Shown here: positions 182 to 23,916 of the stretch, one piece after another
How positions within the stretch are numbered: position 1 is the first letter of the stretch
How the letters are laid out: every line of letters starts with the position of its first letter
Assembly (NCBI GenBank): GCA_001799195.1
Contig: MGSU01000335.1
Coordinates: 864-24,779 of the forward strand
From: Deltaproteobacteria bacterium RIFOXYA12_FULL_61_11
GTDB lineage: Bacteria; Bdellovibrionota_F; JAHFAK01; YA12-FULL-61-11
DNA: 23,916 bases
Direction: 5' to 3'
Made by a program: the position numbers and the translations under genes
Notes under the pieces: generated by a model
What the model saw: the letters and a program-made list of their open reading frames with translations, nothing else
Databases searched by the model: none
Told to the model about the DNA's origin: nothing

Positions 182-203
182 GGCTTCAGGCGCCGGTGAA
201 GCC
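182..203. terminator. Short hairpin over the stop codon of the radical SAM gene
   Basis: GGCTTCA at 182-188 pairs with TGAAGCC at 197-203 around an 8-base loop. It overlaps the TGA stop (186-188) of the minus-strand operon. No T tract follows, so it is at most a weak or processing hairpin. The remaining bases 1-181 hold no gene that I can support. Confidence 0.25.
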
Positions 204-1511
204 GGTCAGCGCAGGTTGCCAGGCTGGAGAACGGCCCGTACCCTGCTCGAGGTTCCATGGCAGCGTTGGGTCGGCAGGTGTCGAGAACACGGGAGCGGAC
301 TCACGTGCGGAAGGTCCGGGCAGCGCATGGTCGATTCCTGCCCGGTACAGAGCCGCGACCGGAGCGGGCAGACGAGGCAAGACCACCTGTTCGAGGAACG
401 GCGAGAAGGCGCAGCAGACCGGATCTCTCTCCTCGAGCCTGCCGGTGTAGCCGAGAGCATTGGCCCGGCAACCGCCGTGGAAGAGGCGGCCATAGCGGCA
501 ATCCCGACAGGGCAGGTCGGCGAGCCGGAGAGCGGCGAAGTCGCGTATCTGTCGGGTTGGTGTGAGGTATTGCTTGGGTAAGGCAGGGTCCTCCCAGGCT
601 CCCCAGTCGGTGTTGCGCAGCGAGGGACAGAAGCGCAGCCGGTCTCCGTCCTCCACGACCAACGCGCCGAAATTGTAGGCACAGGGGTGCTCGTCCCAGC
701 TTGCGGTGGGCAGCCCGAGCACAAGGGCATCGCTGCGGAAGCACTGCACGAGGTCGAGTTTCAGTCCGGGTAATTGCGGATACGCCTCGAGATAGCGGTA
801 GAAGACCGCGGCGATTGCCTCGAAGGCTCCTCTCGTCCAAGATGGCAAGGTTCCTCTGCCATTGCCGTAGCGACCGGAGGGAAAGGCGAGGTCAACCTGC
901 CAACGATGAGCTCCAGCTTCCAAGACCGCCTTGTAGAGCGCCGGCAGGTCGGCAGCGACCTCGGCCTTGCTGATCGTGGTGTTGATCGTGGTGAAGAGGC
1001 CATAGTCTCGCGCGAGCCGTACGCGTTCGAGGAGTGTCCGTGCCGAGGTCGGCCTGCCGCTCGTATCGCGACGAATGCCGCTGTGGGCTTCCAACCCGTC
1101 GATGCTGAAACCTAGTCCCAGGCTGCGCGTGCCGTGAGCGGCTCCTCGTCTAAACCAGCCGGCCAGGCCGTGGAGGACTTTTCGTTGTGCTAACCAGGCG
1201 AGGGTCGGTTCATCGACCAGGTAGCCGTTGGTGAGGATAGAAACGTTGGGGCAAACCCTCAAGGCCAGGTCGACCACCTCCTTCCAGTCCGGTCGGGTGA
1301 AGAGCTCACCGCCGGTCAGGGTGATCTTCGAGACGCCCAAGGCCCCCGCTCGTTCGAGCAAGGAAACCAGGGTGGCACGATCGTGTTCGGCGCAGTCCCC
1401 GTCGGCGGCCCGGTAGCAGTGGGTACAGCGGAGATTGCAGCGGTGCGTGGTCTCGAGGTGCAAACGTACCGGGGAAGTATAGCGATTGAGCAAGCTTTCG
1501 GGTGTGGTCAT
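186..1511 (-). CDS. Radical SAM/SPASM enzyme, probable peptide maturase
   Basis: Predicted 441-residue radical SAM enzyme. The CX3CX2C motif for the SAM-binding [4Fe-4S] cluster is Cys25, Cys29 and Cys32 in THRCNLRCTHCYR, followed by the GGE motif (TLTGGELFTRP). The C-terminal third carries a cysteine-rich SPASM region (HPCAYNFG, RFCPSL, LPCRDCRYG, HGGCRAN, DPVCC), which in this family binds auxiliary Fe-S clusters. I chose the ATG at 1511 because GGGAGG lies about 10 bases upstream and because ATGA overlaps the stop of the upstream exporter gene; a longer open frame back to 1832 only shadows that gene. It is the last gene of an operon peptide-exporter-radical SAM, so by analogy with SPASM maturases such as PqqE and MftC its likely substrate is the 38-residue peptide encoded at 2805-2921. 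The reaction is unknown. A roughly 60-residue Pro/Ala-rich tail follows the last cysteines. Fold assignment is secure; substrate is inference. Confidence 0.9.
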   Translation of the reverse strand: MTTPESLLNRYTSPVRLHLETTHRCNLRCTHCYRAADGDCAEHDRATLVSLLERAGALGVSKITLTGGELFTRPDWKEVVDLALRVCPNVSILTNGYLVDEPTLAWLAQRKVLHGLAGWFRRGAAHGTRSLGLGFSIDGLEAHSGIRRDTSGRPTSARTLLERVRLARDYGLFTTINTTISKAEVAADLPALYKAVLEAGAHRWQVDLAFPSGRYGNGRGTLPSWTRGAFEAIAAVFYRYLEAYPQLPGLKLDLVQCFRSDALVLGLPTASWDEHPCAYNFGALVVEDGDRLRFCPSLRNTDWGAWEDPALPKQYLTPTRQIRDFAALRLADLPCRDCRYGRLFHGGCRANALGYTGRLEERDPVCCAFSPFLEQVVLPRLPAPVAALYRAGIDHALPGPSARESAPVFSTPADPTLPWNLEQGTGRSPAWQPALTGFTGA

Positions 1512-2776
1512 CGAGGATTGCCTCCCGGAATGGGGGTTGAAGTAACATCTGGGCAGAGGACCAAGAAACTGCGCAAGGGCCTGCGGAGGAAGATGACGGC
1601 GATGCAAAGGGTCATGCCCAGACCGCAGAGTATGAACACTGCTCCGAGGCGGTCCGGCCAGTGTTCGCCAAGGATTCCGCCGAGGGCCATGCCCAGCGGG
1701 GTCGTGGCCGCCGAGAGGGCCGACATCACTCCGAAGGTCCGTGCCCGCATCTCCGCAGGCACGTTGGCCTGGAGAATGGATTGGATGTAGACGCTGAAGA
1801 ACCCGTTGCCCAGTCCGGTGAAGGTCATGCACAGCATGGCCAGGAGGGGTGTGCTAGCCAGGCCGAGAGCGGTCAGGCCGATCCCCATGCAGAGGGCGGA
1901 GCTCCCGAGCATCCAGGTCAGAGCCTTGCCCCGCAGCCGCAGGACCCCGGCGAGGAGGAAACCTCCCAAAGCGCCGAGGGCCAGAGCAGCGGAAATACGG
2001 CCATACCAACCTGCGTCCCCTGCCAGGGTGTCTTCGACGAAGAAGGGCAGGAGGACGAAGATGGGTGCGGCCAAGAGGTTGACCGAGGTCGCGAGGATAT
2101 AGAACTCGCGCATGCCCGGCGAGGCCAGGACGAAGCGCAGACCCTCCATGGCCAAGGTGGCGGTGCTGCGATTGCGCGGGCACCTTTCTCGTCTCGGGAG
2201 GGAGAGCGGAGCAAGGGTCAGGGCCGACCATAGGTAACTCAAGCCATCGAGGACGAACAGCAGGGAAGCCCCGCATACGAGGAACAACCAACCACCGAGC
2301 CAGTTACCGAGGAACTCGGCCAACTTGGCGGACCCGGCGCGCAGAGCATTGGCCGCCGGCAGGGAGGAGCGCGGCACCAGGTCGGGAATCAGGGCTGCCA
2401 GACTGGGGCGGAAAACAGCCCGCGTCAAGGCCAGACCGATGGCTCCGAAGGTCAGGACCGCCAAGGCGAGCGGCACACAGTCCGGACAGGAAAAGAGGAC
2501 CAGGGCGGTGGCCGCGGAAAACCCTGCAGCGAGGAGTTCACAGACGACGAGCAGGGATTTCCGCGGTAGGAGATCTCCGAGTGCCCCTCCGTAGGGTGCC
2601 GCTAGAGCGGTGGAGAGGGCGGTGAGGGTCATCACCGAGCCGACCAAGGCCGCTGAACCGGTTGCGTGTTTCAGCCACAGAGCCAGGGCCACTGCGTAGG
2701 CTTGACTGCCCAGGCCGCTGACGAGCTGGCCTTGCCAGAGCACGAGAAAGTGGCGGTTCAGCAGGCGCATGGTCAT
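1508..2776 (-). CDS. MFS efflux transporter (EntS/Mef-like)
   Basis: A 422-residue integral membrane protein with the usual length and about 12 hydrophobic helices of the major facilitator superfamily. The cytoplasmic loop 2-3 motif is present as GGALGDLLPRKSLL, close to the MFS motif-A pattern GxLaDrxGRk. Overall style (NRHFLVLWQGQLVSGLGSQ at the start, RRPL near the end) resembles the drug and siderophore exporters of the EntS/macrolide-efflux branch. The start ATG at 2776 has AAGGAA about eight bases upstream; an upstream in-frame start would run into the preceding peptide gene. The stop TGA overlaps the ATG of the radical SAM gene (ATGA, 1508-1511), implying translational coupling. It begins 28 bases after the small peptide gene, so it is probably the exporter of the modified product. 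The substrate is inferred from context only. Confidence 0.88.
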   Translation of the reverse strand: MTMRLLNRHFLVLWQGQLVSGLGSQAYAVALALWLKHATGSAALVGSVMTLTALSTALAAPYGGALGDLLPRKSLLVVCELLAAGFSAATALVLFSCPDCVPLALAVLTFGAIGLALTRAVFRPSLAALIPDLVPRSSLPAANALRAGSAKLAEFLGNWLGGWLFLVCGASLLFVLDGLSYLWSALTLAPLSLPRRERCPRNRSTATLAMEGLRFVLASPGMREFYILATSVNLLAAPIFVLLPFFVEDTLAGDAGWYGRISAALALGALGGFLLAGVLRLRGKALTWMLGSSALCMGIGLTALGLASTPLLAMLCMTFTGLGNGFFSVYIQSILQANVPAEMRARTFGVMSALSAATTPLGMALGGILGEHWPDRLGAVFILCGLGMTLCIAVIFLRRPLRSFLVLCPDVTSTPIPGGNPR

Positions 2777-2804
2777 GCCGGGGTTCCTTGTTGGGGATAC
2801 AGTC

Positions 2805-2921
2805 TTACTTCGAGCCGGGGAAGTAGTCGGAATCGACCAGATGGCCATTCAAACCGGCATGTTGGCCGAAGTGACGTTGTGCAGGGGTGAAGAGCATCAG
2901 GATGCGGGAGATGAATTTCAT
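2805..2921 (-). CDS. 38-residue peptide, candidate RiPP precursor
   Basis: Short gene encoding a 38-residue peptide. It starts MKFISRILMLFTPAQ, continues RHFGQHAGLNGHLV and ends DSDYFPGSK before a TAA stop. A perfect AAGGAGGT (2926-2933) sits four bases before the ATG at 2921, the best ribosome site in the window, so efficient translation is likely. No cysteine is present. The first half is hydrophobic/basic and could serve as leader; the second half holds His, Asp, Tyr, Phe and a terminal Lys that could be modified. It is first in an operon with an exporter (28 bases downstream) and a SPASM radical SAM enzyme, the usual order for a radical-SAM-modified peptide. I recognise no known precursor family. 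Alternatives: a leader peptide that regulates the exporter, or a small amphipathic membrane peptide. Confidence 0.65.
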   Translation of the reverse strand: MKFISRILMLFTPAQRHFGQHAGLNGHLVDSDYFPGSK

Positions 2922-3019
2922 GGCGACCTCCTTGGTCAGTGGGATACACGGTGCACCCGAACGTTGCCGCGGGTCGCACGGGGCAGTGTAGTAGCAGAAC
3001 CGATGCCAGAAATAACTAT

Positions 3020-3092: not shown

Positions 3093-4763
3093 TCAGCGCA
3101 GGGTGCCGTGGTAATGCGAGGTCAACTGGCGATCCTTGACCTGAGCGAGGGTGTAATCGGGCAACAGCATAGGAGCAATGCGTCCCTCGCCGGCCTTGGT
3201 CTCGAGGACCTCTTTATTGTAGCGACGCACGTGATCGAGCTGGAGAGGAGCCTTGGTCTCACCGAGGGCTTTCGCATAGGCTGCGGCATGTTCGCCGGCG
3301 ATGCGCCCGAAGACCACGATGTCGAGGAGCGAGTTGCCCATGAGGCGGTTCTCTCCGTGGATGCCGCCCGCGGCTTCTCCGGCAACGTAGAGCCCGGGGA
3401 GGGAGGTCTTCGTGGTCTTGTCGATCTTGAGGCCGCCGTTCTGGTAGTGCAAGGTGGGATAGATGAGCATCGGCTCCTTGGAAATATCGATGCCGAAGCG
3501 CTTGTAAAGGATGAATTTCCCGGGGAACTCCTTTTCGACCGTACCCGGCCCGACCATCTGATCGATCATGGGGGAATCAAGCCAGATGCCGAACTTGCCG
3601 GTCGGCGTGGGCACCCCGAGGCCGCGATGGACCTCGCGGATCAGGGCCGAGGCTTCGACATCGCGGGGTTCGCGCTCGTTGACGAACTGTTCCCCCTTGA
3701 CGTTGAGGATGTGCGCACCGGCGCCGCGGAATTTTTCGGTGATGAGAATCCCCTCGGCCTGCTCCGGGAAGATGACGCCGGTGGGATGGTACTGCACGGT
3801 GTGGAGGAAACAGACTTCGACCCCGGCCCGGTACGCCATGACGATGCCGTCGGCCGTGGCGCCGTAATGGTTGGTGGTCATGAACTTCTGGATGTGCAAG
3901 CGGCCGGAACCGCCCGTGGCGATAACCACCGCCTTGGCCTTGACCAGGAAGTACTCCTCGGTTTCGAGGTTATAGAGTACCGCGCCAGCGCAGCGACCCT
4001 CGGCGTCGAGGACCAGCTCGACCGCGGGGCGGAACTCGAGGACCGTGATGGTACCTGGGCGGTTGCGGGCCTCGTCGCGCAGGGTGCGCATGATCTCGGC
4101 GCCGGTGATGTCCGCGGCCGAGTGCATGCGTTTCCGCGAAGTACCGCCGCCGTGGATGGTCATCAGGGTGCCGTCGGTGTCCTTCGAGAAGTTGGTGCCC
4201 AGCTCTTCGAGCCATTTGATCGCCGAAGGGGCCTTGGTGACCAGGGTCTCTACCAGTTCCGGCGTGTTGGTGAAGTGCCCTCCACCCATCACGTCGAGGT
4301 AATGATAATAGGGCGAATCCTTGTGGTGCTGGGTCGCTGCCTGGATGCCGCCCTCGGCCATCATGGTGTTGGCGTCCCCGTGGCGCAGCTTGGTGGTCAT
4401 CAAGACCTTGGCCCCGCGCTCGCTGGCGATCAGTGCGGCGGATGTCCCCGCGCCGCCGGCGCCGATGACGAGTAGGTCGGTCTCGTAGGCCGGTTTGGTC
4501 AGGTCGATCTTGTCCGGGTCGACCCTGCTGGCGGCTTCGAGGACGTCGGCGAATTCGTGGGCGATGCGGTAACCCTTGTTCGGGCCGACCCGCAGGGCAC
4601 GTTTACCATCCTCATTGTAATCGGGGTGATACTTGAGGATCTGCCCGCGTTCCTCGAGCGACATGAAGGGAACTTCGATGTCGTGCTCTTTACGACCGAC
4701 GCGTTCGGATCTGGTCTGCTCGACGACTTTGATCAGCTCTTTCAGCTCTGGAGGGTACGGCAT
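3093..4763 (-). CDS. Fumarate reductase/succinate dehydrogenase-type flavoprotein subunit (TfrA/FrdA-like)
   Basis: A 556-residue FAD-binding subunit. The Rossmann motif GAGGAG is at about residues 101-106. The substrate-site signatures of the family are present: HTVQYHPTGV, PTLHYQNGG and HGENRLMGNSLLD, with the His and Arg residues that bind dicarboxylate. The position that carries covalent FAD in E. coli FrdA (His in SHTVAAEGG) is Asn132 here (ANTMMAEGG), so FAD is probably not covalently bound, as in aspartate oxidase and, as I recall, methanogen thiol:fumarate reductase. Odd points: about 90 residues precede the Rossmann fold, and the region after NSLLD is only about 75 residues, shorter than in classical FrdA. 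GAGGAGA lies eight bases before the ATG. It is the last gene of an operon hdrC-hdrB-frdB-frdA. Direction (fumarate reduction or succinate oxidation) cannot be told from sequence. Confidence 0.85.
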   Translation of the reverse strand: MPYPPELKELIKVVEQTRSERVGRKEHDIEVPFMSLEERGQILKYHPDYNEDGKRALRVGPNKGYRIAHEFADVLEAASRVDPDKIDLTKPAYETDLLVIGAGGAGTSAALIASERGAKVLMTTKLRHGDANTMMAEGGIQAATQHHKDSPYYHYLDVMGGGHFTNTPELVETLVTKAPSAIKWLEELGTNFSKDTDGTLMTIHGGGTSRKRMHSAADITGAEIMRTLRDEARNRPGTITVLEFRPAVELVLDAEGRCAGAVLYNLETEEYFLVKAKAVVIATGGSGRLHIQKFMTTNHYGATADGIVMAYRAGVEVCFLHTVQYHPTGVIFPEQAEGILITEKFRGAGAHILNVKGEQFVNEREPRDVEASALIREVHRGLGVPTPTGKFGIWLDSPMIDQMVGPGTVEKEFPGKFILYKRFGIDISKEPMLIYPTLHYQNGGLKIDKTTKTSLPGLYVAGEAAGGIHGENRLMGNSLLDIVVFGRIAGEHAAAYAKALGETKAPLQLDHVRRYNKEVLETKAGEGRIAPMLLPDYTLAQVKDRQLTSHYHGTLR

Positions 4764-4811
4764 GGTCTGGTCTCCTCATTCGTGACCGGGTTCTACGTGC
4801 AACTGGTGCGT

Positions 4812-5564
4812 TCAGCGCAACCCGACGTTGTCCTTGGAAGGTTTCCACTCGTTGCGGGACATGGCAGGTTCCATTTCCCTGGCGTTGTAGAGTTTCTTGA
4901 GCTCGGCCGTATCCGTGGTCTCGAGCTTGGCGATCAGCTCTCCGAAAAGCCCTTGCTCGATCTTGAGCACCATCTCGGCAAGATGCTGAGCCCTCGGTGT
5001 GAGTTTTGCGCCCCAGAGTCTGCGGGCCATCTGGGCGATATGGTACTGGGGCAACTCGCCCATGCAACGGCTGGCGCAGAGGCCGCACTGAATGCAGTCG
5101 AAGGAGGCTCTGGCCGCGGCTTCGATATCCCCCCGTTTGAGGTAGGCGATGTAGTCCATGACCTTGACGTCCATGGGACATACCTTGGTGCAAGCATTGC
5201 ACGCCACGCAGCGGAACAGCTCGGGATAGGCCTCGAAGATCTCGGTGGCGATGCCTTGCATGGTGGAGACGTCATAGGTCGCCTTCAACGCCGGGTAGAA
5301 GGGGAGTTGGGTCAGGTACATCTCCGGTTCGATGACCGTCTGACAAGCCAAGCCGGTGTGGATCTTGTAGTCGCCGGGCTTGCGGTAGACCGTTGAGCAG
5401 GCTCCGCAAATGCCGCCGCGGCAGCCGCAACCGCGGATGAATTTGTAGCCGGCATACTCCATGGCCTTCATGATCGTCAGCTCGGCCGGCACTTCGTACT
5501 TCTGGCCCATGATGAAGATGGGGATCATCTTGATCATGGGAGTCTTCAGGGTACTCTCGTTCAT
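4812..5564 (-). CDS. Fumarate reductase-type iron-sulfur subunit (FrdB/TfrB-like)
   Basis: A 250-residue ferredoxin-like subunit. The N-terminal plant-type [2Fe-2S] domain has GCGCRGGICGACSTVYR followed by a distal Cys in TGLACQTV. Two further cysteine clusters, CVACNACTKVCP and CIQCGLCASRCMG, match the alpha-helical ferredoxin domain binding [4Fe-4S] and [3Fe-4S] or [4Fe-4S] centres. The tail (EWKPSKDNVGLR) is hydrophilic. ATG 5564 is preferred over the start at 5591 because GAGGTGAGC directly precedes it. It sits between the hdrB-like and frdA-like genes, 54 and 48 bases from them, and should relay electrons between the flavin of the FrdA-like subunit and the HdrB/HdrC-like pair. In methanogen TfrB the HdrB-type CCG domains are fused to this subunit; here they are encoded separately. 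Confidence 0.88.
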   Translation of the reverse strand: MNESTLKTPMIKMIPIFIMGQKYEVPAELTIMKAMEYAGYKFIRGCGCRGGICGACSTVYRKPGDYKIHTGLACQTVIEPEMYLTQLPFYPALKATYDVSTMQGIATEIFEAYPELFRCVACNACTKVCPMDVKVMDYIAYLKRGDIEAAARASFDCIQCGLCASRCMGELPQYHIAQMARRLWGAKLTPRAQHLAEMVLKIEQGLFGELIAKLETTDTAELKKLYNAREMEPAMSRNEWKPSKDNVGLR

Positions 5565-5618
5565 GCTCACCTCTTCGTGGTTACTACTCACGTCGTTGGG
5601 TTCTTCAATCCGTATGGG

Positions 5619-6509
5619 TCATGCCTGGTGGATGGGACTGATACGCTCGGCCACCAGCTTGAGCGAGCTCGCCGGGCTGAGCTCGAGTCCCAGTTCTTCG
5701 TTTCCTACGCCCAGGGCTAGGGCCAGGAGTTGGCTGAAGTACAAGGTCGGCAGCGGACGCAGGCCTTCTCCGTGAGGGAGGACTTGGTTCTGGCAGGTGC
5801 CGAGGTTGTATTCGCACAGGGGGCAGCTCGTGATCACCAGTTCGGCGCCGTGCCGCTCGGCCGAGGCCAGCACATTGGCGCTGGCGCGATGCGCGGCGTC
5901 CGGTTCCGAGAGGATGTTGTAGGCTCCGCAACACTCGATCCTGGCCGGATAGTCGACCGGTTCGGCTCCGAGGGCTCTGAGGAAATCGTCGAGAATGGTG
6001 GGCTGGTCCGGACGGGGATCGATGGACACCGGTCTCGGACGCACCAGGGTGCAGCCGTAATAGGGGGCGACCTTGAGGCCTGTCAGCGGGCGGCGTACCT
6101 TGGCGGCGAGGGTTTTCCAACCGATGCGATCACGCAGCAGGGTGAGCAGGTGGTGTACCTCGACCTCGCCGTGATAATCGGGTTCTTCATCCATGAACGT
6201 GTTGAGCGTATGACGTTTTTCCTCGTCTTCGCGCATCAGGCGGTTCGCCCGGGCCAGGGTGTTGTAGCACATGGAACACAGGGTCATCACCGTCTCAGCA
6301 CCCTGTTCTTTTACTCTGATCAGGTCGCGCACCGGAGCGACCTGGTGGATGAGGTCATCGTCGGTGAGGGAGTACACCGCACCGCAACAATTCCAACGCG
6401 GTAATTCGACGGCGGCTATACCGAGCACGCGGAGCGCGGCGAGAGCGGCATCCTCGAGGTTCTTGGCGCGGGTTTTCAGGGTGCAACCGGGATAGTAGGC
6501 GATCTTCAT
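5619..6509 (-). CDS. hdrB-like: Heterodisulfide reductase subunit B-like protein with two CCG domains
   Basis: A 296-residue protein with two complete CCG (cysteine-rich) domains. The first has YYPGCTLK, RWNCCGAVY and LCSMCYN; the second has YYGCTLV, IECCGAYN and CPLCEYN. In HdrB these cysteines bind two non-cubane [4Fe-4S] clusters where heterodisulfide is cleaved; in SdhE/MfrE-type subunits the same domain serves a quinone or membrane-anchoring role. The start ATG 6509 has GAGGAGG five to six bases upstream and follows the hdrC-like stop by nine bases, so the two are co-translated. The operon context suggests the electron-accepting or donating module of a hybrid fumarate reductase. Because no HdrA (flavin-bifurcating) gene is nearby, a bifurcating complex is not supported. 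Confidence 0.88.
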   Translation of the reverse strand: MKIAYYPGCTLKTRAKNLEDAALAALRVLGIAAVELPRWNCCGAVYSLTDDDLIHQVAPVRDLIRVKEQGAETVMTLCSMCYNTLARANRLMREDEEKRHTLNTFMDEEPDYHGEVEVHHLLTLLRDRIGWKTLAAKVRRPLTGLKVAPYYGCTLVRPRPVSIDPRPDQPTILDDFLRALGAEPVDYPARIECCGAYNILSEPDAAHRASANVLASAERHGAELVITSCPLCEYNLGTCQNQVLPHGEGLRPLPTLYFSQLLALALGVGNEELGLELSPASSLKLVAERISPIHQA

Positions 6510-6518
6510 CTCCCCTCC

Positions 6519-6926
6519 TCAGGCTGTGAGCTTGCGGAAACAACTGACGAAGGCGATCTGCGGCAGGTCGCGTAGTTGCTCCGCGGGCAGGGCGGAAAGG
6601 TTGACATGGTCGACGTTCTCCCGCAACCCGAGCTGCCGGACGGCTTCCATGACGCGGGTGATATCGATGCCGCGGGGGCATCTCGCCATGCAGGTGTGAC
6701 AGGAGGCGCAGACCCAGGCCAGGGGCGCCTCGAGCACTTCCTCGCGCAGTCCGAGTTGGATCAGTTGCATGAGTTTCCTCGGTACCACCTCGGTGTCCGC
6801 GCTCATCGGGCAGGAAGCGGTGCAGGTACCGCACTGCATGCACAGCGCGACGTTCTGGCCGCTGAGCTCGCGGATCTTCTCCTTGAAATCGCAGTCGATC
6901 CTGCGGTCATCGATGAAAAGGGTCAT
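6519..6926 (-). CDS. hdrC-like: Heterodisulfide reductase subunit C-like ferredoxin
   Basis: A 135-residue protein with two cubane [4Fe-4S] motifs, CMQCGTCTASCP and CASCHTCMARCP, spaced as in HdrC. It would pass electrons between the HdrB-like subunit and the FrdB-like subunit. The chosen ATG at 6926 has GGAGGA about eight bases upstream; the open frame continues upstream to 7007 but that part is not needed and has no good ribosome site. It is the first gene of the four-gene redox operon and is separated from the next by nine bases. No membrane segment is visible, in contrast to the membrane-anchored HdrE-linked forms. Confidence 0.87.
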   Translation of the reverse strand: MTLFIDDRRIDCDFKEKIRELSGQNVALCMQCGTCTASCPMSADTEVVPRKLMQLIQLGLREEVLEAPLAWVCASCHTCMARCPRGIDITRVMEAVRQLGLRENVDHVNLSALPAEQLRDLPQIAFVSCFRKLTA

Positions 6927-7056
6927 GGGTTCCGTCCTCCGCGTTGAGGTCGCGCACTGCGGGTGTAGAGCGTGACGTTGGAACTCCCTTAGTCCAGGGT
7001 GGGGCAAGAATCAACGATTTTCTCTTGGACCGAGGCTGAGGCCTCCTGGGGTGTCC

Positions 7057-12676: not shown

Positions 12677-12829
12677 CCCTCCAGCCCTTGTATCGCAGCC
12701 CTGGGAGCTGCGGTGGCTGCCGAGATCCCTCCCACGGTTATGACGCAGAGCAAAAAAATAGAAAGACAGAAGACGGTACTTATATCGATAGTTATTACAA
12801 ATTAATAGAACCAATATTTGACACAGAGC

Positions 12830-14554
12830 ATGAAAACTGGTAAGGGAGGGCGTTTGGAAAAACTCCTGGGGGTGGATATGCTCCGCTGGTCCTTGCTCGG
12901 TTTCTTGGCCCTCTTTTCCATGCTCGGCGGTGCGCAGACTTCGAGTCCTGCCGAGGTCTTCGTGCGTTTCGAGGCATCGTCTCCTGGGGATGATCTGAAG
13001 GCCTATCTGGTCCACGCGCTCGGCCTGGAACTCAGCTTCGTCGAAGGCTGTTATCCCGACCCTCTGGTGGTGTGCTTCCGCGTTCCGGACGGCAAGAATC
13101 TCGACCAGGTGGTCGAGCAACTCTCTGATGACCCGGCCATCGCGTTTGTCAGCCCCAACCAAGCCGTGCCGACCAGCAACCAACAATACCAGACCCAGAC
13201 CCAATTCCAAGAGCCGGTCGATGGCCTGGATCCCATTCTCGAACCCGAAACCCCCTTGCAGCCCCCGGTCGATCCAGGCGAGGAATTACCCCCTCCGATC
13301 GAAGAACCGGTCGTACCGCAACCCCCGGTCGTCGAACCGCCTGTGGTCGAGGAGCCCCCGGTCGAGGAGCCGATCGAACCGCAACCCCCGGTCATTGAAC
13401 CACCCGTGGTCGAGCCGCCAGTGGTCGAGGAACCGGTCGTACCGCAACCCCCTGTCGCCGAGGAAGCGGACTTCGTGCTGACCCACTGGGGTTTACAGCG
13501 CATCGGTCTCGGTGAGGTCAGGCCTCGCTACCAGGGGGACGAGAAGCTCCTCGTGGCGGTTATCTCCACCGGTGTGGATATTCATCACGAGGCCCTGGCT
13601 GAAGTCATCCATACCAATGCCGGCGAAGTCCCGGGCAACGGCAAGGACGACGACGGCAACGGCTTTGTCGATGACGTCTACGGATATGACTTCCTGCACA
13701 ACACCGCCGACGTGACCGACCAGGTCGGTGCCGGCACCGCCGCGGCGGGTCTCATCGCGGGAGCGCGCCAACTCGGGGACAAGACCTATCTCTACGGATC
13801 CGGCGGCAAGGTCAGTCTGTTGCCCATCAAGGTCAATGACGGCAACCTCCTCGTTTTCGCCTGGACCATGTTCAGGGCCTTCGATTACGCGTTGAACATG
13901 GGTGCCGAGGTGATCTACTTCGGCTTGGACTTACATGCGCTCTTCCTCCCGGACGGGGGGCCGCGGCAGTGGTTCCAGTACATCACCCGCAAGGCCGAGG
14001 AACGCAATGTCGTCATCGTGGCTCCGGCCGGAGATCTTGGTTGGAATGTCGACCACTGGCTGTTGCACGGTTACCCCGCCGCTTACAAGAGCAACGCCCT
14101 CCTGACCGTCGGGGCGAGCGACAGCTCTGACCTGCCGGCGGAGACCTCGAATCGCGGTCGCCGCAGCGTCGATCTCTTCGCTCCCGGGGGCGACCTGATG
14201 TGCTTGGCTCCGGACGACGAATACTTCACGTGCTCCGGAACCCCTGCCGCGGCGGCCTTGACGGCAGGAGTGGTCGGATTGTTGCGCGGCTATGCCCCCG
14301 AACTCGATGTTCTCGACGTGCGCAACCGTATCCTGAACACGGTTCAACCCATGGATGAACTGCTGGACAGCTCCGTGAGTGGCGGGGTGCTCGACGAGGA
14401 AGCCGCCTTGTTCGCGGAGCAGGGTGGGAACGACACCGACTTCGCGATAGACGCCGGGTGCGCGGTCGTGAGCGCCGAGCAGCCTCAGGGCTTCTTGCCG
14501 TTCCTGTTCCTCCTGGGGGTCCTGCTCTTCAGCCGACGCCGCGCTGCTCGCTGA
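12830..14554 (+). CDS. Secreted subtilisin-fold pseudoprotease with Pro-rich linker and C-terminal sorting tail
   Basis: About 574 residues: signal peptide (core LLGFLALFSMLGGAQ); a prodomain-like region to about 126; a Pro/Glu/Val linker of PPVVE-type repeats (127-214); a subtilase (S8) fold (about 225-510); then Cys544, a hydrophobic helix and RRRAAR at the very end. The S8 blocks are recognisable but every catalytic residue is changed: Asp to Ser246 (VAVISTGVD), His to Ala301 (GAGTAAAG for GHGTHVAG), oxyanion Asn to Asp402 (APAGD), Ser to Pro472 (SGTPAAAA for SGTSMAAP). The protein should therefore not cut peptides and may bind or scaffold. The tail resembles Cys-TM-Arg sorting signals of the MYXO/JDVT-CTERM kind. 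The start is uncertain: TTG 12854 has GGAGG four bases upstream, ATG 12878 is also possible. It probably shares a transcript with the radical SAM gene 24 bases downstream. Confidence 0.85.
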   Translation: MKTGKGGRLEKLLGVDMLRWSLLGFLALFSMLGGAQTSSPAEVFVRFEASSPGDDLKAYLVHALGLELSFVEGCYPDPLVVCFRVPDGKNLDQVVEQLSDDPAIAFVSPNQAVPTSNQQYQTQTQFQEPVDGLDPILEPETPLQPPVDPGEELPPPIEEPVVPQPPVVEPPVVEEPPVEEPIEPQPPVIEPPVVEPPVVEEPVVPQPPVAEEADFVLTHWGLQRIGLGEVRPRYQGDEKLLVAVISTGVDIHHEALAEVIHTNAGEVPGNGKDDDGNGFVDDVYGYDFLHNTADVTDQVGAGTAAAGLIAGARQLGDKTYLYGSGGKVSLLPIKVNDGNLLVFAWTMFRAFDYALNMGAEVIYFGLDLHALFLPDGGPRQWFQYITRKAEERNVVIVAPAGDLGWNVDHWLLHGYPAAYKSNALLTVGASDSSDLPAETSNRGRRSVDLFAPGGDLMCLAPDDEYFTCSGTPAAAALTAGVVGLLRGYAPELDVLDVRNRILNTVQPMDELLDSSVSGGVLDEEAALFAEQGGNDTDFAIDAGCAVVSAEQPQGFLPFLFLLGVLLFSRRRAAR

Positions 14555-14578: not shown

Positions 14579-15712
14579 GTGGATTTCCTCACGTCCTGCT
14601 ATCATCAATTGGCCGCGCTGTATCCGCGGGTTCGGGAACTCGACCTTCGGCAGGATCGACCGAGGACGACGGGCACGGTCCTGGCCGAAGAACTGAGACA
14701 GCGCGGGCAAGCGGTCCTGGAAGATCGGGCCAGGGTGTTACCCCGACCGCGTTCGATCATTTTCAACCTGACCATGCAGTGCTGTCTGCGCTGCAGGTTC
14801 TGCAACCTGTGGCGGCTCCAGTTCCCCCACATGGAACCGGCATTCTGGCACCGGGCCATCGATGAACTCTATGCGCTCTCGGGGCCGTACCAGCTTTGCC
14901 TCTCCGGAGGCGAGCCCCTACTGGTCCCCTATCTCGAGGAACTGATCGCCCATGCCTCGTCCCTGGGAATAGAGACCGCGGTGCCCACCAACGGGTTCCT
15001 CCTCGATGCGGAGCGTATTCAGCGTTTACAGGCCGCTGGGTTGCGCAGTCTCAAGCTGTCGATCGATGCGCTGGGTCCGCTCCATGATCACTTGCGCCGT
15101 AAAGAGGGTTTGTTCGACAAAGTCTTGGAAGCGATCGGGGCCTTGCGAGGGCACAACCCGAGCATGCAGGTAGGGGTTCTGACCGTCTTCATGGGTCCCA
15201 ATCTTTCGCACCTCGTCCCGCTCGTGGAATGGGTGAGCCAGGAGGAAGCCCTGGGGTTCATCGAGTTCCAGGCCTTGACGCAGACCTATGCCGACCCGCC
15301 CGACACCTCGTGGTATCGCACCAGCGAGCTGTGGCCGTCGGATCCGGCCGCCGTGGAGGTTCTCATTGATCAATTGCTCGCCCTGCAAGCCGCCGGAGCA
15401 CCAATAGGCAATCGTCCCTTCCAGTTACAATTCTTCAAGTATTACTTCAGGAATCCCAACCAGTTTGTCTATCACGATTGCATGATCGGCAATTTCCATC
15501 TCACCGTGCGGAACGACGGCGAGGTGTCGTCGTGTTTCAACCAGGGACTCATGGGTAACCTCCGAGAGAACTCCCTGGCCGAGCTCTGGGAAGGAGCGCG
15601 AGCCTCGTTGCAACGCCTCAAGATGGAGACCTGTCGCGTTTCGTGCGGTTTCCCGGTGAATTGCTACTTTGCCGAGAACGCCCGTTATGTCTTCCCCTCT
15701 TCAGAGGATTGA
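14579..15712 (+). CDS. Radical SAM/SPASM enzyme
   Basis: A 377-residue radical SAM protein starting at GTG 14579, with GGAGA just upstream. The cluster motif CX3CX2C is Cys68, Cys72 and Cys75 in MQCCLRCRFCNLW, followed by LSGGEPLLVP (GGE motif) and the strand SLKLSIDAL. The C-terminal SPASM-type region starts DCMIGNFHLTVRNDGEVSSC (CX12GX4C) and ends with METCRVSCGFPVNCYFAEN. A roughly 60-residue helical segment precedes the core. It lies 24 bases behind the pseudo-subtilase gene and ends overlapping by 28 bases the 3' end of a convergent SPASM-like/TPR-like gene. No short precursor peptide is seen beside it, so the substrate may be a larger neighbour protein, such as the pseudo-subtilase, or something distant. 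Function not known. Confidence 0.87.
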   Translation: MDFLTSCYHQLAALYPRVRELDLRQDRPRTTGTVLAEELRQRGQAVLEDRARVLPRPRSIIFNLTMQCCLRCRFCNLWRLQFPHMEPAFWHRAIDELYALSGPYQLCLSGGEPLLVPYLEELIAHASSLGIETAVPTNGFLLDAERIQRLQAAGLRSLKLSIDALGPLHDHLRRKEGLFDKVLEAIGALRGHNPSMQVGVLTVFMGPNLSHLVPLVEWVSQEEALGFIEFQALTQTYADPPDTSWYRTSELWPSDPAAVEVLIDQLLALQAAGAPIGNRPFQLQFFKYYFRNPNQFVYHDCMIGNFHLTVRNDGEVSSCFNQGLMGNLRENSLAELWEGARASLQRLKMETCRVSCGFPVNCYFAENARYVFPSSED

Positions 15713-18011: not shown

Positions 18012-20255
18012 GTGACGAAAGTGAAGGGAGGGACGAAGCGAGGCCTTGCCGCCGGTCTGCTGGCCGCGCTCGTTGGGCTCGGTCATTGTTCCAGGCCCAA
18101 TGCCGAGAACGGACTCGAGGATGCATCGAGGGACGGGCAGGAGCGGTTGCTCGAGGAAGTGCTGCTCTCCCGGGTCAGGGTCGAGGGCCGGGTACTCGCC
18201 CCTGGGGGCAAGGCCTTGGCGGGCGCCGAGGTACGTCTCGGTTCGCTCATTGCTGTCAGCGGTGCAGAGGGCGAGTTCTTGTTCCCGGAAGTCCCTCCCC
18301 GCAATGCCCTGCTCGAGGTTCGCGCGGAAGGATACTATCCCGAGTTGCGACCCTTGGGATTGGCGCGACCTCCGGAGGAGATCGCGCTCGGAGTCCTGGT
18401 GGTCAGGCCCGCTCCCCGCGAGCCGGAGTTCTCCCGCTTGCTCTTCGGCGGGGATGTGGCCCTGGGCCGGCGGTACCTCGACGTCGACGGTGGCACGCCT
18501 CCCGAGGTCCTCCCCGCGGACAACCCGGCCGCGCTGCTCCAGGTCTCCGACCCGTTGCCCGGCGCTCGGGCGGTGTTCGCCCAGGTGCGGCCCTATTTCC
18601 AGGCCGTCGACTTCCGTGCCTTCAACCTCGAATCGCCAGTCCTCGACCGGCCGGAAACCCCTCATCCGAGCAAGGCTTTCGTCTTCTTTACCCTCCCCGG
18701 CGCATTGGGCGCGTTTTCCTGGCTCGGTGTGGACTACGTTTCGCTCGGTAACAATCACCTCTACGACTACCTCGAGGCCGGCCTCGACCAGACCCTAGCA
18801 AACCTCGCTTCGGCAGGCCTGCCCTCCAGCGGAGCGGGGAAAGACGCCCGCCAGGCTTTCCTGCCGTACCGGACCACGCTGGCCGGTCGCGAGTTGTCGT
18901 TTCTCTCCATGACCTCGGTCAGCGGTTCGCAATACCAACCCGACCTGGTGGCGAGCGATACCAAGGGCGGAGCCGCGGACCTTCGCGACGACCAGACCGT
19001 ACTCGAGGCGGTCGGGAAAGAACGTAACGGGGGGCGTCTACCGGTGGCCATGCTCCACACGGGCAAAGAGTATTCCTTCTCGCCGTCCGAGTACGCCCTG
19101 GATCGTTTCCGCCTCGCCGTCGAGGCCGGGGCTTCGCTGGTCCTTGCCCATCATCCCCATGTGGCCCAGGGCTTCGAGTTGCAAGGGGGTGTCCTGGTTG
19201 CCCACAGCCTGGGCAATTTGGCGTTGGATCAGGACCGCCTGGAAACGATGCTGACCGTCCTGCTCGAGGTCGATGTCCGCGGCGGCGCGGTGGTCGGCGC
19301 GAGGGCCTTGCCCCTCTACCTCGAGGACTATAGTCCCCGTCCTGTGACCGGGGAGTTGGCCGAGGCATTGTTGCGGCGCCTGGGCGAGGTCTCGAAGGGC
19401 GTGCAGGTCTGTATCGAAGACGGGAAGGGCCAACTCGTGCTCTCGGGCAGCGCGCGACGGCAGCGACGCTCGAGTACGCTTGAGGTCCAGCTCGGTCCGG
19501 AGGGCAGCGAGCTCCTCGACCTGCGTTCCCTGCGTCGCGAAGGCGAGTCCCTTACCAGACTCGGCGGTTTCGGCGAGCGCGTTGTGGAGTTGGGCCGCGA
19601 TTACCTGCTGCACGGGGATTTCGAAGACTGGGATCTGGACGACGAGACCTTCGAGCTGTCGCGCTGGGACCTCTCGCGACCCTCTCGCTTCGCCTGCCGC
19701 GAGGGTGCCCGGCGTGGTCTCTTGGGACTCTGCAGCAGTCGGAGTGCCGGGAACGAGGGAGCCAGCCACCTGCGTCCTCTCAACACCGTCCGCGTGGCCG
19801 CTCTCACCGATACCCCGGTACCGAGCGTCACGGTGCTCGGTTATCTGCGCGGGAACAATGCCGGCGCCAGCACCGTGGAGGTTTCCTTCCAGGCGCTCGG
19901 CGGTGGAGATGCTATCGATGAAAAGAACCTCGACACCCATGCCGGCGGCACCTATACGTGGCGGCGTTTTTCCGGCCGGGTGACCTTTCCCGAGGAGCAT
20001 CTCGATCCCGCCGATGTACCCGGCACGCACGGACTGGGTCTTCGACTGACCGTGACCCACGAACCCCCTGTTACCGGGGCTGCCCTGCTTGGTCTCGACG
20101 ACGTGGCCGTGGTGAGCTGGGAACGGAAGCATCAAGGGCCGGGAACGCTCCTCCTACCCCTGCCCAACCAGTACGACTTCCTCACCCTGGCCGGTCCCCC
20201 GGGCACGGTGCTGCTCGAACTCGAGTGGGAACGTTGTGGTGAGATCGGGGAGTGA
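18012..20255 (+). CDS. CapA-family (poly-gamma-glutamate capsule type) protein with accessory domains
   Basis: A 747-residue secreted protein starting at GTG, seven bases after GGGAGG. The first 26 residues form a signal ending GLGHC; His at -1 makes this a poor lipobox, so lipidation is doubtful. Residues about 54-112 look like a carboxypeptidase-regulatory beta-sandwich (VEGRVLAPGGKALAGAEV ... GEFLFPEVPP). Residues about 140-430 are the CapA metallophosphatase-like domain: LLFGGDVALGRRY, FNLESP, SLGNNHLYDYLEAGLDQT, LAHHPHVAQGFE and HSLGNLALDQ, with the Asp, Asn and His metal ligands present. The C-terminal 200 residues (LLHGDFEDWDLDDE ... GLDDVAVVSWE) resemble a jelly-roll sugar-binding module. 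No capB or capC homologue is nearby, so a role in capsule synthesis is not supported; a cell-surface hydrolase is as likely. Confidence 0.85.
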   Translation: MTKVKGGTKRGLAAGLLAALVGLGHCSRPNAENGLEDASRDGQERLLEEVLLSRVRVEGRVLAPGGKALAGAEVRLGSLIAVSGAEGEFLFPEVPPRNALLEVRAEGYYPELRPLGLARPPEEIALGVLVVRPAPREPEFSRLLFGGDVALGRRYLDVDGGTPPEVLPADNPAALLQVSDPLPGARAVFAQVRPYFQAVDFRAFNLESPVLDRPETPHPSKAFVFFTLPGALGAFSWLGVDYVSLGNNHLYDYLEAGLDQTLANLASAGLPSSGAGKDARQAFLPYRTTLAGRELSFLSMTSVSGSQYQPDLVASDTKGGAADLRDDQTVLEAVGKERNGGRLPVAMLHTGKEYSFSPSEYALDRFRLAVEAGASLVLAHHPHVAQGFELQGGVLVAHSLGNLALDQDRLETMLTVLLEVDVRGGAVVGARALPLYLEDYSPRPVTGELAEALLRRLGEVSKGVQVCIEDGKGQLVLSGSARRQRRSSTLEVQLGPEGSELLDLRSLRREGESLTRLGGFGERVVELGRDYLLHGDFEDWDLDDETFELSRWDLSRPSRFACREGARRGLLGLCSSRSAGNEGASHLRPLNTVRVAALTDTPVPSVTVLGYLRGNNAGASTVEVSFQALGGGDAIDEKNLDTHAGGTYTWRRFSGRVTFPEEHLDPADVPGTHGLGLRLTVTHEPPVTGAALLGLDDVAVVSWERKHQGPGTLLLPLPNQYDFLTLAGPPGTVLLELEWERCGEIGE

Positions 20256-22154: not shown

Positions 22155-23916
<1,762 letters not shown>

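Follow-up and report, generated by a model that had tools for sequence, protein, structure and literature searches.

The window, by which we mean the whole 23,916-nucleotide stretch analysed here (G000:C335:864-24779), covers almost the whole length of a contig of 24,779 bases, which belongs to a draft genome of 4.64 Mb that is 87% complete. A cassette of three genes lies on its minus strand in the order 38-amino acid open reading frame (ORF), MFS gene, and radical SAM/SPASM-like gene, with the following features:

2926-2933, minus strand: Shine-Dalgarno sequence AAGGAGGT of the putative precursor gene, from direct reading of the sequence
2805-2921, minus strand: putative precursor peptide gene P0001, 38 amino acids, whose homologues occupy the corresponding position in two Bordetella loci (L030 5401-5538 and L031 5407-5541)
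2829-2873, minus strand: conserved block HFGQHAGLNGHLVDS (HFGxHxxxxGHLVDS), the presumed modification and/or recognition site, in which the three peptides agree at 10 of the 15 residues
1508-2776, minus strand: putative MFS exporter P0003, 422 amino acids, TIGR00900/EntS/MefA-like, from model scores and identity to the MFS protein of Bordetella genomosp. 1
186-1511, minus strand: putative radical SAM/variant-SPASM maturase P0002, 441 amino acids, from Pfam and NCBIfam matches, solved relatives, and Bordetella enzymes encoded beside homologous peptides

Four bases (CGCC) separate the Shine-Dalgarno sequence from the precursor ATG, 28 nt lie between the precursor stop and the MFS start codon at 2776, and the MFS stop overlaps the radical SAM start by 4 nt (ATGA, 1511-1508). 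The gene order, overlaps and motifs reported in the initial annotation all hold on direct reading, as does its strong ribosome site ahead of the tiny gene (AAGGAGGT at 2933-2926). The GC content of the cassette equals that of the neighbouring DNA, and no peptidase gene is found in the cluster. A methyltransferase gene past the window edge was considered as a further member and set aside, being the housekeeping CmoA (241 bits, above the cut-off), which is not related to the TehB-like enzymes encoded in the Bordetella clusters.

P0002 carries the motif C25xxxC29xxC32, a GGE motif at residues 67-69 and a cysteine-rich C-terminal region, and matches the Pfam Radical_SAM model at 1.2e-14. The best NCBIfam score is to PqqE (67.7 bits against a cut-off of 381.35), followed by maturases of the nif11 class and of the GDL-motif type, and the protein falls far under every equivalog cut-off among the NCBIfam models listed. 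By sequence, the closest solved relatives are PqqE (6c8v) and SkfB. The AlphaFold model of P0002 is weak (mean pLDDT 53), and its closest matches in fold are SkfB, BlsE, SuiB and anSME, with PqqE also among them. Neither P0002 nor the Bordetella enzyme P0004 has an RRE or PqqD-type match in Pfam.

The proposal that this is a SPASM radical SAM enzyme stands in part. The radical SAM assignment is sound and SPASM-like cysteines are present at 277, 295, 335, 338, 348 and 366/367, but one canonical cysteine is missing: against the pattern CX9-15GX4C...CX2CX5CX3C...C, six positions are present and the third cysteine of CX2CX5CX3C is replaced by Phe344, followed by His345. Because this cysteine is absent and the Pfam SPASM model (PF13186) does not reach its threshold on P0002, we refer to the enzyme only as a variant SPASM protein. 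The Phe-His pair occupies this position in all four known members (the window enzyme, two from Bordetella and a Pseudomonas remnant), and the surrounding string LFHGGCRAN is identical in each. In PqqE the third cysteine is likewise replaced, there by Asp319, a reported ligand of the AuxII cluster (PMC5715301), rather than by Phe-His. By analogy, His345 of P0002 may be a putative stand-in ligand for an auxiliary cluster.

Relatives of the enzyme are few. With P0002 as the single query, no homologue came up among the genomes of 84,980 species. A search of plasmids recovered a truncated piece from the C-terminal end of the enzyme, with 49.5% identity, present on three plasmids of Pseudomonas aeruginosa, and an alignment of P0002 with this remnant was used for a second scan of the 84,980 species. 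That scan, which demanded one of two short conserved strings and could therefore miss divergent members, returned only two full-length homologues, both in distantly related Bordetella, namely Bordetella genomosp. 1 (L030, 41% identity) and B. trematum (L031, 42%). Of the 15 genomes in the genus Bordetella two are carriers, and the count for the family is also two, out of 268; samples of the surrounding order, class and phylum held none beyond these two, and 386 genomes across the domain yielded no further carrier. No orthologue was found in the surroundings of the window organism, whose phylum is represented by two species only. Phage records contained no family member, and neither did two viral scans, of which one was empty and the only yield of the other was a weak 28% stretch. 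The enzyme-peptide family is very rare. The Pseudomonas remnant itself lies at L020 6001-6390 on CP124675.1, with further occurrences on CP109684.1 and CP109756.1; it immediately follows the gene of an RND efflux permease and precedes a GNAT gene by about 21 bp.

Looking for a short ORF beside the enzyme homologues had been suggested as a check, and one is present directly upstream in both full-length cases, each with its own Shine-Dalgarno sequence. These ORFs encode peptides of 44-45 amino acids (MTLLANLISKFFKWRAGSRRHFGYHSVHGGHLVDSCFSVAEPHRK and MTKLLILLSKALKRYSGHRKHFGYHVTYAGHLVDSCNSISGPIG). In the Bordetella loci the order is peptide, enzyme, MFS and TehB-like methyltransferase, the two methyltransferases being 43% identical to each other, compared with peptide, MFS and enzyme in the window. 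Precursor, enzyme and MFS are thus kept together as one set in all three genomes, which represent two phyla, and the peptide gene comes first in each locus though the other gene order differs. This arrangement bears on whether the short ORF might be a regulatory leader peptide (attenuator) of the efflux gene, with the radical SAM enzyme acting on some other substrate. Attenuator leader peptides control some macrolide-resistance genes, and in the window the short ORF does sit immediately ahead of an efflux gene, whose MFS product has MefA-like scores. A leader would be expected to stay attached to one gene, however, and here the gene that follows the peptide is the MFS gene in the window and the enzyme gene in Bordetella. 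The conserved part is also a 15-residue block, and no terminator-like hairpin was found between the peptide and MFS genes, so that we consider an attenuator barely plausible.

The Bordetella cassettes have a GC content of 47-49%, against 60-63% in their flanks, a difference which suggests that they were gained by horizontal transfer and that the set moved as a unit. On either side of the B. trematum cassette there are ORFs that, as recognised by eye, resemble IS3-type transposases. In B. trematum LMG 13506 an in-frame TAG interrupts the radical SAM gene (L031, about 6697-6699), and because of it the pathway may be decaying in this strain. The Bordetella enzymes also possess an extra N-terminal domain of 130 amino acids (VDxYWHxxILNTxxY...FGxFxxH; L030 5590-5985 and L031 5593-5985) that is absent from the window enzyme and for which no separate gene was found in the window genome. 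This domain has no meaningful match in Pfam, NCBIfam or the PDB, and is all-helical in a low-confidence AlphaFold model (pLDDT 52).

The window peptide, MKFISRILMLFTPAQRHFGQHAGLNGHLVDSDYFPGSK, has no family match among Pfam and NCBIfam models and lacks the PqqA and MftA motifs; the initial annotation likewise recognised in it no match to the PqqA, MftA, streptide and triceptide families. It aligns with the Bordetella peptides well beyond chance: BLASTP against the Bordetella genomosp. 1 peptide gives E = 1e-7 (as a single comparison), the alignment scores of 63 and 65 for the two Bordetella ORFs were not equalled in any of 20,000 shuffles, and both ORFs are the top match to the window peptide among the 350 and 384 open frames of their loci. 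Matches of the peptides to plasmids were weak (E of 3 or higher) and were discounted as chance; one was inspected and lay inside an unrelated conjugation region. All three peptides share the motif [RK]HFGxHxxxxGHLVDS, in which Arg or Lys precedes the 15-residue block; the N-terminal leader is looser ([FL][IL]S[RK]) and the C-terminal tail is variable. Across the 15 codons of the block, the three pairs differ at 8, 9 and 9 third positions and at 3-4 of each of positions 1 and 2. At the invariant residues all codon differences are synonymous, indicating that it is the amino acids that are conserved. Loss of the peptide at the amino-acid level had been named beforehand as an outcome that would count against a peptide pathway; the peptide is instead conserved in both Bordetella loci.

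Where conservation lies within the peptide differs from what the initial annotation expected. It placed the core at DSDYFPGSK, most of which is not conserved: only Asp30 and Ser31 are shared, and the tail Tyr, Phe and Lys are not. The tails read DYFPGSK in the window and CFSVAEPHRK and CNSISGPIG in Bordetella, and at no corresponding position do all three have a reactive residue in common; the invariant residues of the block with reactive side chains are His17, Phe18, His21, His27, Asp30 and Ser31. For this reason the chemistry more probably falls within the block, most likely on one of these six residues, where an oxidative cross-link or a similar C-H functionalisation would be introduced. 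The reverse arrangement, close to that first proposed, would make HFGxHxxxxGHLVDS a recognition leader and the variable tail the modified and released core. Leaders are conserved and cores vary in many RiPP classes, and the window tail does offer Tyr, Phe and Lys. Enzymes that are 41-42% identical would nevertheless be expected to share their chemistry, which the three tails do not readily accommodate, and it is the invariant block that is rich in reactive side chains; a modified tail is accordingly an unlikely reading to us. The window peptide contains no cysteine, as was noted when a sactipeptide was first discounted, and so lacks the donor residue of sactipeptides and ranthipeptides; the two Bordetella peptides have one cysteine each, in the tail.

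The description of P0003 as an efflux-type MFS protein agrees with its Pfam matches (MFS_1/MFS_3) and with the MFS genes of the Bordetella clusters, the Bordetella genomosp. 1 protein being 29% identical. It is a TIGR00900-type protein with EntS- and MefA-like scores, below all named cut-offs, and would export the product of the pathway. The second-best score, 98 bits against a cut-off of 324, belongs to the enterobactin exporter EntS, and the peptide block has His17, His21, His27 and Asp30 invariant. These features could fit a RiPP with a metal-binding, metallophore-like product, in which three His and one Asp form a metal site tuned by the enzyme and an EntS-like pump exports it. As TIGR00900-type pumps export many compounds, and the cluster holds neither an uptake receptor nor a metal regulator, we regard a metallophore as a minority prospect.

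We favour the reading that the cassette is a RiPP-type pathway making and exporting a modified small peptide, with a probability of roughly 0.8. The only two full-length enzyme homologues each have a homologous short ORF with a Shine-Dalgarno sequence upstream, the homology of these peptides exceeds chance with block codon differences mostly at third positions, and the MFS gene is kept across the loci. PqqE, SkfB, SuiB and anSME are among the closest solved proteins in sequence or fold (the fold model being weak), the low-GC Bordetella clusters indicate a set that apparently moved as a unit, and the peptide stays first despite differing gene order. On the other side, the precursor set consists of three sequences only, one SPASM cysteine is missing, the 130-residue Bordetella domain is absent from the window enzyme, the B. 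trematum LMG 13506 enzyme has its in-frame TAG, and the cluster shows no peptidase and the enzyme no detectable RRE. Of the general marks of a radical SAM RiPP system, a short precursor adjoining the enzyme and conserved with it as a pair is found, and an RRE for leader binding is not; the RRE is common but not universal in such pathways.

In the RiPP-type pathway as we propose it, the 38-residue precursor would be translated from its strong ribosome site and bound by the radical SAM/SPASM-like enzyme, so that P0002 would act on P0001. A 5′-deoxyadenosyl radical would then be used for oxidative modification of the invariant block, a protease encoded elsewhere in the cell would probably release the product, and the MFS pump would carry this small product out. 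A more specific and tentative version, to which we give rather less than even odds, is that the pathway represents a new class of RiPP whose enzyme, a Phe-His SPASM variant, adds a His-involving cross-link or similar modification within HFGxHxxxxGHLVDS, and which has an exported product and has spread horizontally between phyla.

Compared with known systems, the predicted pathway resembles a radical SAM RiPP, and its sequences place it outside PQQ, mycofactocin and sactipeptide biosynthesis and set it apart from streptide. As in the PQQ pathway, a short precursor stands first in the operon and the radical SAM/SPASM enzyme has no fused RRE. PqqE is also the best named relative (67.7 bits; 6c8v), and Tyr-Phe...Lys in the window tail is loosely PqqA-like, which might point to a PQQ- or mycofactocin-like redox cofactor made from the peptide. 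That score is nonetheless far from the PqqE cut-off (TIGR02109, 381.35 bits), the peptide lacks Glu-x3-Tyr, its Tyr is not conserved among the peptides, and the cluster contains no PqqB, PqqC, PqqD or Mft partners. For mycofactocin (TIGR03962), P0002 scores 46.9 against 265 bits, and the precursor ends in GSK rather than the C-terminal Val-Tyr of MftA. A dedicated efflux pump also fits a cofactor poorly, and we consider this origin highly unlikely.

The streptide and RaS-RiPP C-C cyclases (SuiB, WgkB) similarly pair a precursor with a SPASM radical SAM enzyme, and SuiB is among the top fold matches. The WgkB model, however, scores only 34 against 650 bits on P0002, the window peptide has no Trp-Lys motif, and the window cluster includes an MFS export gene. 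The GDL-motif and nif11-class maturases (TIGR03913 and TIGR04103) give the next-best NCBIfam scores at 62-64 bits, but their cut-offs are 592 and 725, and the window peptide matches no named precursor family. The His and Phe of the block would permit the aromatic-X-X cross-link of triceptides, which have a dedicated maturase; no such maturase model is among the 25 matches listed.

A plasmid of the gut bacterium Agathobacter rectalis (NZ_CP143948.1) has a comparable adjoining set of small ORF, radical SAM and MFS genes, the enzyme being 25% identical and the MFS 21% over 254 amino acids. There, an unannotated 35-amino acid ORF, MFNLEELSLEFVKISELKTSKNLFGPVMYGTGVRM, with a good Shine-Dalgarno sequence precedes the radical SAM and MFS genes (L021 4812-7432). 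In contrast to the window, its SPASM cysteines are complete, and the 35-residue peptide is unrelated to the window peptide (shuffle-level score). It is possibly another precursor-maturase-exporter set, and this layout may recur with different precursors.

The open-access literature and family libraries searched contain no description of the family, and the papers do not contain the string GHLVDS; a literature lead on a Chromobacterium SPASM/MFS system was set aside because it concerns a GDL-type maturase. The pathway is very probably undescribed so far. It would add a compact family of precursor, maturase and exporter for which no current Pfam or NCBIfam model provides a name, with an unusual auxiliary-cluster motif and an invariant three-His precursor block unlike the precursors compared. 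Three genes suffice for a test in E. coli, which could reveal new C-H functionalisation chemistry.

Other genes of the window include a second radical SAM gene (14579-15712, plus strand), which lies between the genes of a subtilase and a TPR-like protein; its product has a true SPASM Pfam match and is without an NCBIfam equivalog. The subtilase (12818-14554, plus strand) contains a long linker rich in Pro, Glu and Val, and a hydrophobic stretch at its C-terminus followed by RRR looks like a tail for sorting or anchoring. A single run on the minus strand (3093-7007) encodes a fumarate-reductase-like flavoprotein (TfrA-like), an Fe-S subunit, an HdrB/SdhE-like CCG protein and an HdrC-like Fe-S protein; the CCG protein scores 166 bits, below the cut-off, against the anchor of methylmenaquinol:fumarate reductase. 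On the plus strand, 18012-20255 encodes a 747-amino acid protein in which a carboxypeptidase-regulatory-like domain is followed by a PGA_cap (CapA-like) domain, and 22244-23779 encodes the beta subunit of an alternate F1F0 ATPase (TIGR03305, 876 bits, above the cut-off).
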